Of a stretch of DNA of 64,000 nt, positions 141 to 5,662 are shown piece after piece; position 1 is the stretch's first letter, and every line of letters starts with the position of its first letter. The position numbers and the translations under genes are program-made. The stretch is from NCBI GenBank assembly GCA_947626905.1, contig CANQUE010000004.1, forward strand, positions 1 to 64,000, in the 5' to 3' direction. Source of the DNA: an uncultured Oscillospiraceae bacterium (GTDB lineage: Bacteria; Bacillota; Clostridia; Oscillospirales; Oscillospiraceae). The notes beneath the pieces are model-generated. The model made no database searches. It worked only from the letters and a program-made list of their open reading frames with translations, and was not told the origin of the DNA.

Positions 141-1667
141 TCATCCCTTGAAGTAGCTGTCGAAATAATCCTCGTCGGCGGAGTGGGCGCCCCGGGGGGC
201 GGGGCCGTCGTCATAGCCGTCGTCGTCCTGCCCGCCGTCCTCCGGCTGGTCGATGTAACCGGCGGGGCCGTCGTCATAGTCGTCCTCGTCGTCCTCCGGG
301 TCGTCGATCCACTGGGCCTCCTGCTGGGACTGGGCGATGGCCCGGTCCTTTTTCGCCACCCGCAGGCTGTGCAGATGGCGGAACCGCTGGACGAAATAGA
401 ACACCATCAGCAGCAGATAGATGGCCAGCAGGATGATCAGGATGGTGATGATCTGGCGGACGGCGGGGGTCTGGAACATGCCGTCCAGCTGGGTGCGCAT
501 GTACTCCAGCCGGGAGATCTCCACGGTGGAGGCGGCCACCAAGCGGGAGGAGCCGAAGTTCTCCCCGTCCAGATATACGGTGATGGTGCCCAAACTCTCC
601 CCGGCGCTGATCGGCGCCTGGAGCTGGCGGCCCTCCTGCTCGTGGGTGTACTGCACCTCATAGCGGATGTCGCCCAGCTGCTGGTCGTTGGGAAGGATGA
701 TGGATTTTCCGGACTCCGCCCGCACGCCCACGGAGCTGGGGTTGCCCATGTTCACATCGAGGGTGGCCAGCACGTCGGTGGCCGACAGGATGGAGCGGTA
801 GCTGAAGTTGGCGAACACCCAGTCGAACAGCGACCGGGCGGCCCGGAACTGGTCGCCCACATTGGGGCAGCCGATCACGACCACGATGACGTTCATCTCG
901 TTCCACTCCGCGGCGGCGATCATGCACCGGCCATATTCGTCGGCGTAGCCGTTCTTCACGCCATAGGCCCGGTCAAAATAGTTGTCGCTGGTGGGGATGA
1001 GCATCTCGTTGCGGTTGGTCAGTTTCCGGGATTCAGACTGTTCCGTGGCCTCCACGGTATGCTCCGCGGCGCTGCAGATGCTCAGCATCTGGGGGCTGCT
1101 GAGCAGCTGCCGGGCGATGATGGCAAGGTCCATGGCGGTGGAGTAATGGTCCTCCGCCACCTGGCCGTTGGCGTTGGCAAAGTGGGTGTTGGTGCATCCC
1201 AGCTCATCGGCCCGCTTGTTCATGGCGGTCACGAAGGAGCTCACCGAGCCGGACAGATGCTCCGCCAGCACGTTGCAGGCGTCGGCGGCGGAGCCGAGCA
1301 TGGCCCCGTACAGCAGATCCTCTATGGACAGGGCCTCGCCCGGGTGGATGATGGGGTCCATGGAGGTGCTGTTGTCCTGCATATTATACCGCACGTCTTC
1401 CGACGCCGTGGCCAGGTCCGACAGGGCCACGGTCCGGTTGCTGACGGCCTCGGAGACCAGCAGCGCCGTCATCGCCATGGTCAGCTCCGCCGGAAAATAC
1501 CGCTGGTCCGCGTTGAGCTCGTACATCACATCCCCCGTGTCCGCGTCCATCACGACGGCGGCCTGGGCCGCCACCACGGGATCGTCCAGCGCCAGGGCCG
1601 GCACGGGGACAAGGGCTGTGAGCAGCGATATGATCAGAAGAAAGGACAACAGCTTGAATTTTTTCAT
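141..1667 (-). CDS. DacF-like D-Ala-D-Ala carboxypeptidase family protein, probably inactive, with acidic cytoplasmic tail
   Basis: Protein of 508 residues. The start is the ATG at 1667 (GGAG seven bases upstream, then a signal peptide, residues 1-26, ending ALA), not the longer ORF-track start. The fold of family S11 penicillin-binding proteins is clear (ADTGDVMYELNAD; LLYGAMLGSAAD; MNKRADELGCTNTHF; HYSTAMDLA). The active-site motifs are altered: the usual S-L-T-K reads E61-L-T-M64, the SGN motif reads SAA, and KTG reads KNG. A beta-rich C-terminal domain is followed by a membrane helix (IITILIILLAIYLLLMVFYF) and a roughly 70-residue tail rich in Asp/Glu with repeated YDDGPA. The family trims peptidoglycan stem peptides; this copy probably binds or scaffolds rather than cleaves (inference). 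Confidence 0.85.
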   Translation of the reverse strand: MKKFKLLSFLLIISLLTALVPVPALALDDPVVAAQAAVVMDADTGDVMYELNADQRYFPAELTMAMTALLVSEAVSNRTVALSDLATASEDVRYNMQDNSTSMDPIIHPGEALSIEDLLYGAMLGSAADACNVLAEHLSGSVSSFVTAMNKRADELGCTNTHFANANGQVAEDHYSTAMDLAIIARQLLSSPQMLSICSAAEHTVEATEQSESRKLTNRNEMLIPTSDNYFDRAYGVKNGYADEYGRCMIAAAEWNEMNVIVVVIGCPNVGDQFRAARSLFDWVFANFSYRSILSATDVLATLDVNMGNPSSVGVRAESGKSIILPNDQQLGDIRYEVQYTHEQEGRQLQAPISAGESLGTITVYLDGENFGSSRLVAASTVEISRLEYMRTQLDGMFQTPAVRQIITILIILLAIYLLLMVFYFVQRFRHLHSLRVAKKDRAIAQSQQEAQWIDDPEDDEDDYDDGPAGYIDQPEDGGQDDDGYDDGPAPRGAHSADEDYFDSYFKG

Positions 1668-1718: not shown

Positions 1719-1747
1719 ATTATAAAAAAAATCCCGGGAAAAAGCAA
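1719..1747 (-). promoter_or_regulatory. sigma-A-type promoter for the DacF-like gene
   Basis: On the minus strand TTGCTT (1742-1747), a 17-base spacer and a perfect TATAAT (1719-1724). Predicted transcription would start about 45 bases before the ATG at 1667. Confidence 0.7.
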
Positions 1748-1769: not shown

Positions 1770-2141
1770 ATGCAAAAATTGGCTGAACGAAAACCGGGCT
1801 TTGCCCGGCCGGTCCTGTGGGCCGTGACCGCGCTTCTGGCGGCGGGCACGGTGGGTCTGTACGCCCATACCGGCGGCGCCGGCCAGCTCATCCTCTCCCC
1901 GTTGGAAAGAACGGCCCTGGCCGCCCGGGCCGGCGGGCTGGACCTGAACGAGGCCACGGCGGAGGATCTGCAGGAGCTGCCCGGCATTGGGCCCGTACTG
2001 GCGGAGCGGATACTGGCCTGGCGGGCGGAGAACGGCCCGTTCACCGGTCCGGAGGACGTGCTGGCCGTCAAGGGCGTGGGCCCGGCCACCTATGAGGCCA
2101 TGGCCCCGTATATCGAATTCGGAACAAGGAGCGCGCCATGA
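1770..2141 (+). CDS. ComEA-related helix-hairpin-helix protein
   Basis: 123 residues. An N-terminal membrane helix (about residues 13-32) is followed by a tandem helix-hairpin-helix region from about residue 57 (LNEATAEDLQELPGIGPVLA, then VLAVKGVGPATYEAM). This is the DNA-binding part of ComEA, which holds incoming DNA at the membrane during natural transformation. The SLBB domain found in full-length ComEA is missing, so it is a short form. No convincing Shine-Dalgarno precedes the ATG. The stop overlaps the next start as ATGA, so it is translationally coupled to the response regulator. A role in DNA uptake is inference: HhH repeats also occur in other DNA-binding proteins. Confidence 0.75.
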   Translation: MQKLAERKPGFARPVLWAVTALLAAGTVGLYAHTGGAGQLILSPLERTALAARAGGLDLNEATAEDLQELPGIGPVLAERILAWRAENGPFTGPEDVLAVKGVGPATYEAMAPYIEFGTRSAP

Positions 2142-2821
2142 AGATCCTGGTAGTGGACGACGAAGAGCTGCTGGTCAAGGGGATAAAATTCAACCTGGAG
2201 AACGAGGGCTATGAGGTGGACGCCTGCTATGACGGCCAGACCGCCGTGACCATGGCCCGGGACCGGGGATATGGGCTGATCATCCTGGACCTGATGATGC
2301 CAAAGCTGGACGGGCTGAGCGCCTGCATGAAGATCCGGGAGTTCTCGACCGTGCCCATCATCATGCTCACCGCCAAAAGCGAGGACACCGACAAGCTCAT
2401 CGGCTTTGAGTACGGCGCGGACGATTACATCACCAAGCCCTTCAACATCCTGGAGCTGAAAGCCCGGGTCCGGGCGCTGCTGCGCCGGGCCAACCTGCAG
2501 GGCGGCGGGGACGGCCCCGCCCGGCAGCTGGTCCGGGACGGACTGGTCATCGACACCGAGCGCCGCTCCGCCCAGGTGGACGGCCGGCCGGTGGAGCTGA
2601 CGGCCAAGGAGTTCGACCTGGTGGAGCTGCTGATGCGCTCGCCGGGGAAGGTCTTTTCCCGGGAGAATCTGCTGGACCTGATATGGGGCTACGACTACCA
2701 GGGCGATATCCGCACCGTGGACGTACACATCCGCCGCCTCCGGGAGAAGCTGGAGCCCAACCCGGCCGAGCCGGCGTATATCATCACCAAATGGGGTGTG
2801 GGGTACTATTTCAAGGACTGA
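2138..2821 (+). CDS. OmpR/PhoB-family response regulator
   Basis: 227 residues. The receiver domain (1-118) has acidic pocket D7-D8, phosphoacceptor D51 (ILDLMMP) and the conserved lysine in TKPFN. The C-terminal winged-helix DNA-binding domain (about 130-226) ends in the typical TVDVHIRRLREKLEPNP and WGVGYYFKD. Start ATG 2138 overlaps the stop of the ComEA-like gene. It is followed without a gap by its sensor kinase and a GerMN lipoprotein, an arrangement frequent in Clostridia. The signal and target genes cannot be read from the sequence. Confidence 0.95.
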   Translation: MKILVVDDEELLVKGIKFNLENEGYEVDACYDGQTAVTMARDRGYGLIILDLMMPKLDGLSACMKIREFSTVPIIMLTAKSEDTDKLIGFEYGADDYITKPFNILELKARVRALLRRANLQGGGDGPARQLVRDGLVIDTERRSAQVDGRPVELTAKEFDLVELLMRSPGKVFSRENLLDLIWGYDYQGDIRTVDVHIRRLREKLEPNPAEPAYIITKWGVGYYFKD

Positions 2822-4259
2822 GCGAAAACAGAAACGAAGGGGCCTGTCCGTCCGGTTCAAGCTGGCCGCCGCCTTTTCCCTGTTTACAGCCGCGCTGCTG
2901 CTGTTCGTGAACATCTACCCGATCCTTGTGAGCCGGGACATGGTGATCTCCGCCAAGCAGAGCGCCCTGCAGTCCCAGGGTTCGGTGATCTCCAGCTCCC
3001 TGTCGGCGCTGGAGGTGCTGACGGCCGAGTCGGTGGAGCAGGTGGTGAACCTGCTGGACGTGGCGCCGGTGACGAGGATGCTGGTCACGGACCAGACCGG
3101 GCTGATCCTCTACGACACCGACCAGGACGACAGCGCCGTGGGCCGTTACGGCCTGCTGACGGAGGTGGCCGGGGCGCTGGACGGATACGCCTGGTTCTCC
3201 TGCGCCTATTCCCACGCGGAGGCGGCCTTTACCAGCCGCTGCGCCACTCCGGTCTCCGCCGGAGGCGCCATCACAGGGGCGGTGTTCCTCTATGACCACG
3301 ACCAGTCCCAGGGCGAGATCATCGCGGGGCTGCAGAGGAACCTGCGCAACATGTCCGCCCTGTTCGGCGGGGCGGGCCTCGTCATCATTTTCGTGCTGGC
3401 GTCCACTCTCACCCGGCGGATCAAGCGGCTGAGCGCCGCCATGGAAGTGGTCCGCAGCGGGGATTACTCCTACCGCATCCGGGTCCGCGGCCGGGATGAG
3501 CTGGCGGAGCTGTCTGACGAGTTCAACGTGCTCACCGGGCGGCTGGAGAGCACCGAGGAGGCCCGCCGCCGGTTCGTGTCCGACGCCTCCCACGAGCTGA
3601 AGACCCCTCTGGCCGCCATCCGGCTGCTCAGCGACAGCATCGCCCAGTCCGACTCCATGGACGGGCCCACCACCCGGGAATTCGCCCGGGACATCGGCAG
3701 CGAGGCCGACCGGCTGCAGCGGATCACCGAGAAGCTGATGAGTCTGACGAAGCTGGACTCCGGCGTCACGGTCCGGCAGCGGGAGCCGGTGGACGTCAAG
3801 GACGTGGCGGAGCGGACGCTGCAGCTGCTCCAGCCCCTGGCCGCCGCCCAGAACGTGACCATCGAGGCGGCGCTGGCGGAGGGCTGCGTGGTGTCCGCCT
3901 CGGCGGACGATCTCTATCAGGTCATCTTCAACCTGGTGGAAAACGGGATCAAATACAACACCCCCGGCGGGTCCGTATCCCTCTGCCTGCGGCGGGAGGG
4001 AGAGCGGGCCGTGCTCACCGTGTCCGACACCGGCATCGGCATCCCCCCGGAGGATATAGACCACATCTTCGAGCGGTTTTACCGGGTGGATAAGGCCCGC
4101 TCCCGGGCCAGCGGCGGCAGCGGACTGGGCCTGGCCATCGTCCACGACGCGGTCCAGGCCAACGGCGGCGCCATTCGGGTAGACCCCCGGCAGCAGGGGG
4201 GCACCACCTTCACCGTCAGTTTCCCTCTGGCCGCCCGGAAAGGAGGGGGAAGACCATGA
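2796..4259 (+). CDS. membrane sensor histidine kinase
   Basis: Up to 487 residues from a GTG at 2796 that overlaps the end of the regulator gene. This start has no clear Shine-Dalgarno; a start just after the regulator stop (for example CTG near 2847) is also possible. Order: membrane helix (FKLAAAFSLFTAALLLFVNI), extracytoplasmic sensor region of roughly 140 residues, second membrane helix (FGGAGLVIIFVLASTL), HAMP, HisKA with phosphoacceptor H266 (SDASHELKTP), then HATPase_c with the N box (NLVENGIKYN), DTGIGIP and SGLGLAIV. Partner of the preceding regulator. Its stop overlaps the next ATG as ATGA. Confidence 0.93.
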   Translation: MWGTISRTERKQKRRGLSVRFKLAAAFSLFTAALLLFVNIYPILVSRDMVISAKQSALQSQGSVISSSLSALEVLTAESVEQVVNLLDVAPVTRMLVTDQTGLILYDTDQDDSAVGRYGLLTEVAGALDGYAWFSCAYSHAEAAFTSRCATPVSAGGAITGAVFLYDHDQSQGEIIAGLQRNLRNMSALFGGAGLVIIFVLASTLTRRIKRLSAAMEVVRSGDYSYRIRVRGRDELAELSDEFNVLTGRLESTEEARRRFVSDASHELKTPLAAIRLLSDSIAQSDSMDGPTTREFARDIGSEADRLQRITEKLMSLTKLDSGVTVRQREPVDVKDVAERTLQLLQPLAAAQNVTIEAALAEGCVVSASADDLYQVIFNLVENGIKYNTPGGSVSLCLRREGERAVLTVSDTGIGIPPEDIDHIFERFYRVDKARSRASGGSGLGLAIVHDAVQANGGAIRVDPRQQGGTTFTVSFPLAARKGGGRP

Positions 4260-5662
4260 CCGGCCGCATCTTAGCCATCGTTCTGGCGCTGGCGCTGCTG
4301 GCGGGCTGTTCCTTCGACCCGGGCCAGCTGGACCTCCCCTTCTCCCTGCCCTGGTCCCAGGGGGAGGAGGCCGGGGAGAGCGACGGCTTTCCCGTCTGCC
4401 GTCTGACGGCGGTAGACCCCGCCGCGGCGGAGGACGCCGACCCCTACGGTTCGCTTATTGGCTGGGAAACATGTCCCCTCCCGGCAGACGCCCCCTCCCA
4501 GCTGGAGGCCGCCATCGCCCTGTTCGCCTCTCCCAGCCACACCGAGGGCCTTTTCTGCCCCCTGCCCCAGGGGGTGACCGTGGAGGACTGGAGCCTGGAC
4601 CACGGCCAGCTGACGGTCCGCTTCTCTCCCGGCTATCTGGATATGGACGATATGGACCGCACCGCCGCGGCCTTCTGCGCGGCGCTGACGCTGTGCCAGG
4701 TGGGCGGAGTGGAGTCCGTCACCGTGGCCGCCGGGGACCGGGAGCTGTTTGCCGGTCTGGTGCCGGCGGACGCGCTGCTGCTGGCCACGGACACCGATCC
4801 CTATGTGCGGCAGCTGCGGCTGTATTTCGCCGACGGCAACGGCCGCCGGCTCGTCAGCGAGTACCACAGCCTGACCCTGGAGGAGGACGCCGCGGCGGAC
4901 CGCTATGTGGTGGAAGAGCTGCTCCGGGGCCCCAACGGCCGGGAACTGCGCAGCGCCATCCCGGAGGGGACCCAGCTCCTCTCCTGCCAGACGGAGGACG
5001 GCGTGTGCACCGTGGATCTGTCCGCGGCGTTCTATGACGGCCGGCCCCGCTCGGCGGCGGGCGAGCGGCTGGCAATCTATTCCATCGTGGACTCCCTCAC
5101 CGCCCTGCCCCAGGTGGACAGCGTACAGCTGCTGGTGGAGGGCCAGGCCCTGGATAAGTACGTTTACCGCTCTCTGGCCCAGCCCATCGGCCGGTATGAG
5201 GAGGCCATCGGTCCGGTGTCCGAGAACCGGGGCGAGCTGGATGTGGACCTTTACCTGCCCCTGCCGGGTCTGAAGGCGGTGGAGCCGCTGCCCTGGCGGG
5301 TGAGCATCGGCGAGCACGACTCTGTGCCGGAGGCGGTGCTGGCGGCGCTGCTGACGGCGGCGGAGCCGGGCTATCCGGCGCTGTTTTCCGGCAGCGGGAC
5401 CGCCGGCCGGGTGACCCTGCAGGGCACTGCCTGTACGGTGGACCTGTCGGAGAGCTTTTTCGCCTCTCTTCCCGTCGGGGACCGAAGTCTGGCCGTCCGG
5501 TCCATGACCGCGTCTTTGTGCGCGCTGGACCAGGTGGACGCGGTGTTCTTCACCATCGGCGGCGGCCCGGCGCTGTTTGACGGCGTGGACTGGACCGGCC
5601 CCTGGACGGAGGACCCCCTCCCGCCGGACGCTCTGCCCGCCGCGCTCCGGCCGGACGTCTGA
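4256..5662 (+). CDS. lipoprotein with two GerMN domains
   Basis: 468 residues with a lipoprotein signal peptide and lipobox LLAGC (lipidated C18). Residues about 180-315 form a GerMN domain (QLRLYFADGNG; VVEELLRGPNG; CTVDLSAAFYDG). A second, more diverged copy lies at about 355-455 (AVLAALLTAAEP; CTVDLSESFFASLP). GerMN was first described in the GerM sporulation/germination protein, which links the mother-cell secretion channel to its basal ring. Proteins like this encoded after a two-component system are also found in vegetative clostridial envelopes. Translationally coupled to the kinase, so it is probably part of the same envelope-sensing unit (inference). Confidence 0.85.
   Translation: MTGRILAIVLALALLAGCSFDPGQLDLPFSLPWSQGEEAGESDGFPVCRLTAVDPAAAEDADPYGSLIGWETCPLPADAPSQLEAAIALFASPSHTEGLFCPLPQGVTVEDWSLDHGQLTVRFSPGYLDMDDMDRTAAAFCAALTLCQVGGVESVTVAAGDRELFAGLVPADALLLATDTDPYVRQLRLYFADGNGRRLVSEYHSLTLEEDAAADRYVVEELLRGPNGRELRSAIPEGTQLLSCQTEDGVCTVDLSAAFYDGRPRSAAGERLAIYSIVDSLTALPQVDSVQLLVEGQALDKYVYRSLAQPIGRYEEAIGPVSENRGELDVDLYLPLPGLKAVEPLPWRVSIGEHDSVPEAVLAALLTAAEPGYPALFSGSGTAGRVTLQGTACTVDLSESFFASLPVGDRSLAVRSMTASLCALDQVDAVFFTIGGGPALFDGVDWTGPWTEDPLPPDALPAALRPDV

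Follow-up and report, generated by a model that had tools for sequence, protein, structure and literature searches.

Introduction

Low-molecular-mass penicillin-binding proteins (PBPs) have been studied as enzymes and as drug targets. Those of the DacF/DacA type (MEROPS family S11), represented by E. coli PBP5 and PBP6, are secreted proteins in which an S11 domain is followed by a PBP5_C domain, and which are held at the membrane by an amphipathic C-terminal anchor. In PBP5, replacement of the active-site serine (S44G) left neither penicillin binding nor carboxypeptidase activity, and the mutant was no longer concentrated at the septum (PMC2909392). Pseudo-peptidases that appear to have been kept in Firmicutes as regulators include the clostridial Csp proteins CspA and CspC, which have a subtilisin fold, act in spore germination and are not membrane proteins of the kind described here. 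The degenerate LytM factors EnvC and NlpD of E. coli have an M23 fold unrelated to that of S11 proteins, act on amidases and have no cytoplasmic tail. By analogy, they too may be instructive, as a non-catalytic cell-wall hydrolase fold kept for the regulation of cell-wall enzymes (PMC7668044).

We have analyzed a DacF-type gene in a 64,000-nt stretch of DNA (hereafter the window; contig CANQUE010000004.1 of assembly GCA_947626905.1) from an uncultured Oscillospiraceae bacterium. The original prediction, made from the sequence of the window, was that its product is probably a pseudoenzyme serving as a peptidoglycan-binding sensor or scaffold. We found no description of an S11/PBP pseudoenzyme of this kind in the open literature that was searched, which does not prove absence.

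Results

The gene is a minus-strand open reading frame at 141-1667, with its ATG at 1667, and encodes a DacF-type protein of 508 amino acids with the S11/PBP5_C arrangement. Its features, and those of the adjacent locus, are as follows.

141..1667, minus: putative pseudoenzyme gene, whole (ORF listing; Pfam; single ortholog per genome in 35/35 of the genus)
1590..1667, minus: signal peptide, residues 1-26, MKK start and ALA end (read from sequence; start strongly conserved in orthologs; AF2 helix 4-19)
867..1583, minus: Peptidase_S11 ectodomain, residues 29-267 (Pfam E 2.9e-52; AF2 pLDDT mostly >=90; PDB matches PBP6/PBP5)
1476..1487, minus: degenerate SxxK, E61-L-T-M64 (alignments; lost in 25/25 clade members)
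1284..1292, minus: degenerate SxN, S126-A-A128 (alignments)
948..956, minus: degenerate KTG, K238-N-G240 (alignments; KTG still present in 8/25 clade members)
519..806, minus: PBP5_C beta domain (PF07943), residues 288-383 (Pfam)
387..455, minus: transmembrane helix, residues ~405-427, putatively N-out/C-in (hydrophobicity; positive-inside rule, basic RFRHLHSLRVAKK following; AF2 helix 401-453)
309..386, minus: basic cytoplasmic juxtamembrane helix, residues 428-453 (sole region without acceleration in the pseudoenzyme clade)
171..308, minus: acidic disordered cytoplasmic tail, residues 454-499, 2 YDDGPA copies (AF2 pLDDT ~36-40; composition)
150..170, minus: conserved C-terminal peptide DYFDSYF, residues 500-506 (regex on all tails)
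1719..1747, minus: likely sigma-70-type promoter, TTGCTT, 17 nt, TATAAT (read by eye)
1770..2141, plus: divergent neighbor, ComEA-like helix-hairpin-helix protein, locus marker (Pfam; conserved synteny)
2138..4259, plus: response regulator and HAMP histidine kinase; these mark the locus, obligate partnership being rejected (Pfam)

The signal peptide, the one transmembrane helix and the acidic tail with YDDGPA repeats had all been predicted and are real; the 55-residue acidic tail contains 22 D/E and 2 K/R, and the two repeat copies lie at residues 464 and 485. The protein is predicted to be oriented N-out/C-in, and its true transmembrane helix, cytoplasmic helix and tail differ from the anchor of PBP5 and PBP6. 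The strong promoter that had also been proposed is borne out in part: TATAAT at 1724-1719 (minus strand) is perfect and the spacer is 17 nt, but the -35 element TTGCTT matches at 3/6 positions and a consensus promoter scan listed no minus-strand site. Searches for terminators and RNA elements found none that was relevant.

By both profile and structure the protein has the fold of low-molecular-mass PBPs, with PBP5_C after S11 as in the PBP5/DacF architecture. AlphaFold2 (AF2) modeled the ectodomain with confidence (pLDDT mostly at least ~90) and placed residues 401-453 in a single continuous helix, which would cross the membrane and extend into the cytoplasm; the tail was predicted to be disordered. 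The best matches among solved structures were E. coli PBP6 and PBP5 (Foldseek E ~1e-34), with ~25-30% sequence identity, and the AF2 models of the window protein and of a catalytically intact ortholog have one common architecture. The fold is therefore intact, as originally proposed. All three motifs that define an active S11 enzyme are nevertheless altered. Translation and alignment placed ELTM, SAA and KNG on the S/K, S-x-N and K-T-G positions of solved PBP5 and PBP6 and of intact orthologs, so that the nucleophile and general base of SxxK, the asparagine of SxN, and KTG (or KSG) are all missing from the window protein. The codon changes were found again in independent genomes, and orthologs 75-76% identical to the window protein read EMTM/SST/KNG or EMTM/SAT/KNG; sequencing or assembly error can therefore be rejected as their source. 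Because Ser, Lys and Asn are all gone, catalysis is very unlikely to persist, and the view that the window protein is a true DD-carboxypeptidase pseudoenzyme appears strongly supported.

We observed exactly one ortholog per genome, at the same locus, in all 35 genomes examined from the genus, which is one of uncultured gut bacteria. Ten of these have intact motifs (STTK/SAN/KTG), and 25 are without SxxK and SxN. In an ML tree from which the motif columns were left out, the 25 motif-lost orthologs formed one clade (bootstrap 100, SH-aLRT 99) nested within the genus; the 10 intact lineages lay outside it, and the outgroups of the tree are intact too. The loss of SxxK and SxN thus had a single origin within the genus. 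Clade members are 43-76% identical to the window protein, and the replacement residues vary among them, with E/G/T/A/V/N/F at the position of Ser and A/E/T/Q/M/S at that of Asn. Since KTG is retained in 8/25 clade members (e.g., GLTM/SAA/KTG) and eroded in the others, the loss was stepwise, Ser, Lys and Asn going first and KTG later. Partial motif changes were seen in other orthologs outside the genus. At the same locus of a rumen Oscillospiraceae MAG (L096, 5001-6320) we observed an independent loss of all three motifs (GLTV/GAS/KST), and in DacF relatives from other families (L045, L049, L052, L059) KTG has become NYG, CSG or NSG with SxxK kept, for which altered specificity is possible. An open frame of 946 residues (L065 in G022:C5, ORF at ~2038, minus strand) unites an intact-motif S11 domain with a hydrophobic stretch and an extended C-terminal part, the latter resembling, by eye, a PQQ-type beta-propeller.

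Throughout the family the locus has a conserved layout: on the side divergent from the gene are comEA and the genes for the response regulator, the histidine kinase, a lipoprotein with a GerMN domain, an Xaa-Pro peptidase and EF-P, and the window gene has this arrangement. On the other side, spo0A is situated no more than a few kb from the gene in G020:C5, G029:C7, G025:C15, G024:C2, G018:C93 and G023:C44; this is the side cut off in the window contig, which starts at window base 1, so that the region downstream of the gene falls outside it. Loss of sporulation was considered as a cause of motif loss and rejected, Spo0A being present in 34/35 genomes without correlation. The window genome contains two further S11 paralogs with intact motifs, and compensation by gene duplication was not seen, as two further S11 genes occur in most genomes of the intact and motif-lost groups alike.

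We compared regional rates of change between the pseudoenzyme clade and its intact sister lineages. The active-site columns were accelerated ~130-fold, a value that is indicative since the column set was defined on the same alignment. The ratio was 3.4 for the S11 domain, 2.7 for PBP5_C, 1.9 for the stalk plus transmembrane helix and 1.28 for the juxtamembrane helix, against a background of 1.55 for the response regulator and 1.54 for ComEA, the control genes all being drawn from the same neighborhood. The S11 domain has therefore changed ~2-fold faster than the background, and the cytoplasmic helix at or below it. Positions conserved in intact orthologs and released in the clade lay near-exclusively in S11 and around the catalytic motifs (21 in S11 versus 2 in residues 288-458, Fisher p 7e-4); those that had become fixed anew in the clade lay mainly in PBP5_C, stalk, transmembrane helix and juxtamembrane helix (20/171 in the membrane-proximal and cytoplasmic part versus 6/239, p 3e-4); as the position classes were also defined on this alignment, both p-values are indicative.

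The reading frame is open in 25/25 clade genomes, with no premature stop within domains. Approximately 1900 replacements were estimated for the S11 domain (7.94 per site x 239 sites), for which the neutral expectation is on the order of 100 nonsense changes (~1 nonsense per 19 missense, a rough estimate). Pairwise dN/dS of the gene was mostly <0.6, similar to ComEA and the histidine kinase and above the response regulator, by the NG86 method, which is crude in GC-rich genomes and gave values reaching ~1 in some segments. The open frame, these dN/dS values, the sharp regional rate differences and the segregation of released from fixed positions together indicate, within the crudeness of such estimates, that the gene has been retained under selection as a pseudoenzyme. 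Loss of catalysis, as judged from the motifs, and retention across the clade accordingly place the protein among functional pseudoenzymes, and the original prediction of a probable pseudoenzyme gains strong support from the monophyletic loss in 25 genomes with open frames.

One genome, represented by L012 (G001:C49), looks mosaic. Its response regulator and kinase are 91% and 87% identical to those of the window, and its transmembrane and juxtamembrane segments 84-86%; its S11 domain is 40-45% identical to the window clade, with NG86 dN/dS of at least 1.0 in residues 29-330. Its ectodomain was possibly swapped by recombination or has diversified rapidly, and such recombination or ectodomain acceleration may distort parts of the tree.

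A C-terminal peptide that had been overlooked in the original prediction emerged from comparison of the tails. In all eight intact genus members whose tail is complete, D(Y/F)FDSFF is followed by just two more residues; in seven outgroup orthologs, including Candidatus Scatomorpha, the peptide reads DYFEEFF or DYFDDFF. At the end of the window protein and of those closely related to it the sequence is DYFDSYF, and at that of L007 and L008 it is NYFDTYF; a degenerate coding pattern of the peptide had a single match in the whole genome of the window. The window protein has thus kept an ancestral C-terminal peptide that is common to it and catalytically intact orthologs of other genera. The tail itself had been thought unusual, which does not hold for the group, as catalytically intact orthologs of the genus are also tailed. 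The peptide is missing in 18/25 clade members, which have other acidic tails instead, and in one more it is cut by a contig end; because of these 18 losses, it is not essential to the role of the protein everywhere. The tails of L016, L029, L032, L033, L035 and L037 have been lengthened by tandem acidic repeats, e.g., EYADEG/QYADEG, and some of them end in basic-aromatic peptides resembling KPPKRRWWKR.

The adjacent histidine kinase is missing in 7/35 genomes, all of them among the 25 with the pseudoenzyme, which is kept. In these (L009, L010, L011, L013, L026, L035, L036) the kinase, response regulator and GerMN lipoprotein genes (window 2138-5662) have been lost from this place, and the Xaa-Pro peptidase gene adjoins comEA. 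Pseudoenzyme and kinase thus do not show the constant co-occurrence expected of a sensor and its kinase; obligate partnership is rejected, and a dedicated link between the two is unlikely.

Discussion

The intact orthologs of the same genus, of Candidatus Scatomorpha and of other Oscillospiraceae share the locus, transmembrane helix and cytoplasmic tail of the window protein, and several also have DYF(D/E)xFF; unlike it, they have kept SxxK, SxN and KTG and a slowly evolving ectodomain. The reading that we favor, and consider somewhat better than even, is that the window protein is a retained pseudoenzyme that serves the cell-wall machinery as a non-catalytic transmembrane scaffold or adaptor, the role being carried by its membrane-proximal and cytoplasmic parts. 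We prefer it because constraint persists on the fold, on the part near the membrane and on the cytoplasmic helix. The scaffold half of the original prediction fits these observations, given the constraint on helix and C-terminal peptide, although slow decay of the ectodomain could likewise account for an S11 domain changing at ~2x background.

We envisage that the protein descends from an active, bitopic S11 enzyme of the DacF type in which the basic juxtamembrane helix on the cytoplasmic side was present from the start, joined in several lineages by a short DYF(D/E)xFF peptide at the C terminus. In one branch of the genus the catalytic Ser and Lys and the SxN Asn would have been lost once, and the protein kept afterwards for a non-catalytic task. 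The folded ectodomain with the membrane-proximal PBP5_C/stalk region may then form an extracellular docking body, and the continuous helix from membrane to cytoplasm, with the C-terminal peptide, may bind a cytoplasmic protein, so that the molecule would join an extracellular cell-wall component to it. A more specific form of this proposal, which we regard as tentative and rather doubtful, is that a DD-carboxypeptidase was turned into an obligate transmembrane adaptor within one genus, the helix and DYFDxYF recruiting a cytoplasmic cell-envelope factor in a job of the peptide that predates catalytic loss.

The sensor half of the original prediction fared less well. A dead pocket that binds D-Ala-D-Ala without cleavage and signals through the transmembrane helix would accord with the retained fold, with Ser126, which many clade members keep, and with a HAMP histidine kinase and response regulator adjacent in most genomes. 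A ligand pocket is, however, expected to be conserved, and here no columns of the protein drift faster than those of the pocket; the kinase is also missing from 7/25 pseudoenzyme genomes, and catalytically intact orthologs share the locus and tail. Since the cleft drifts freely, sensing through the old pocket is unlikely. That the protein is still an enzyme, with a new mechanism or altered chemistry, is by far the least credible reading: the fold is intact, but the replacement residues vary by subclade without a common new set, and no conserved polar constellation stands in place of those lost.

The rapid change of the ectodomain invites other explanations. It might have been under diversifying selection as a surface target (a phage receptor or host-recognized antigen), the enzyme function being shed and the cytoplasmic anchor conserved, as the mosaic appearance of L012 could suggest, with its divergent S11 domain beside similar flanking segments and neighbors. 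We think this improbable, as the hot spot is the active site rather than an outer surface loop, dN/dS is <0.6 in most pairs, and, with dS near saturation, a single recombination import explains L012. We give similarly little credence to slow decay, in which the gene would persist as a relic by chance or for its anchor only. The acceleration of S11 over neighboring genes and the non-canonical motifs at the same locus in other genera speak for such decay; against it are a frame still intact in every clade genome over long divergence, the well-predicted fold, and a cytoplasmic helix changing no faster than background.

For the family, a lineage in which catalysis was lost once, as judged from the motifs, while the gene was kept everywhere is a natural experiment that separates the enzymatic from the non-enzymatic role of DacF. 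In 25/35 species of the genus, this gene is probably misannotated as 'D-alanyl-D-alanine carboxypeptidase', and the conserved cytoplasmic peptide offers a concrete bait for finding a partner.
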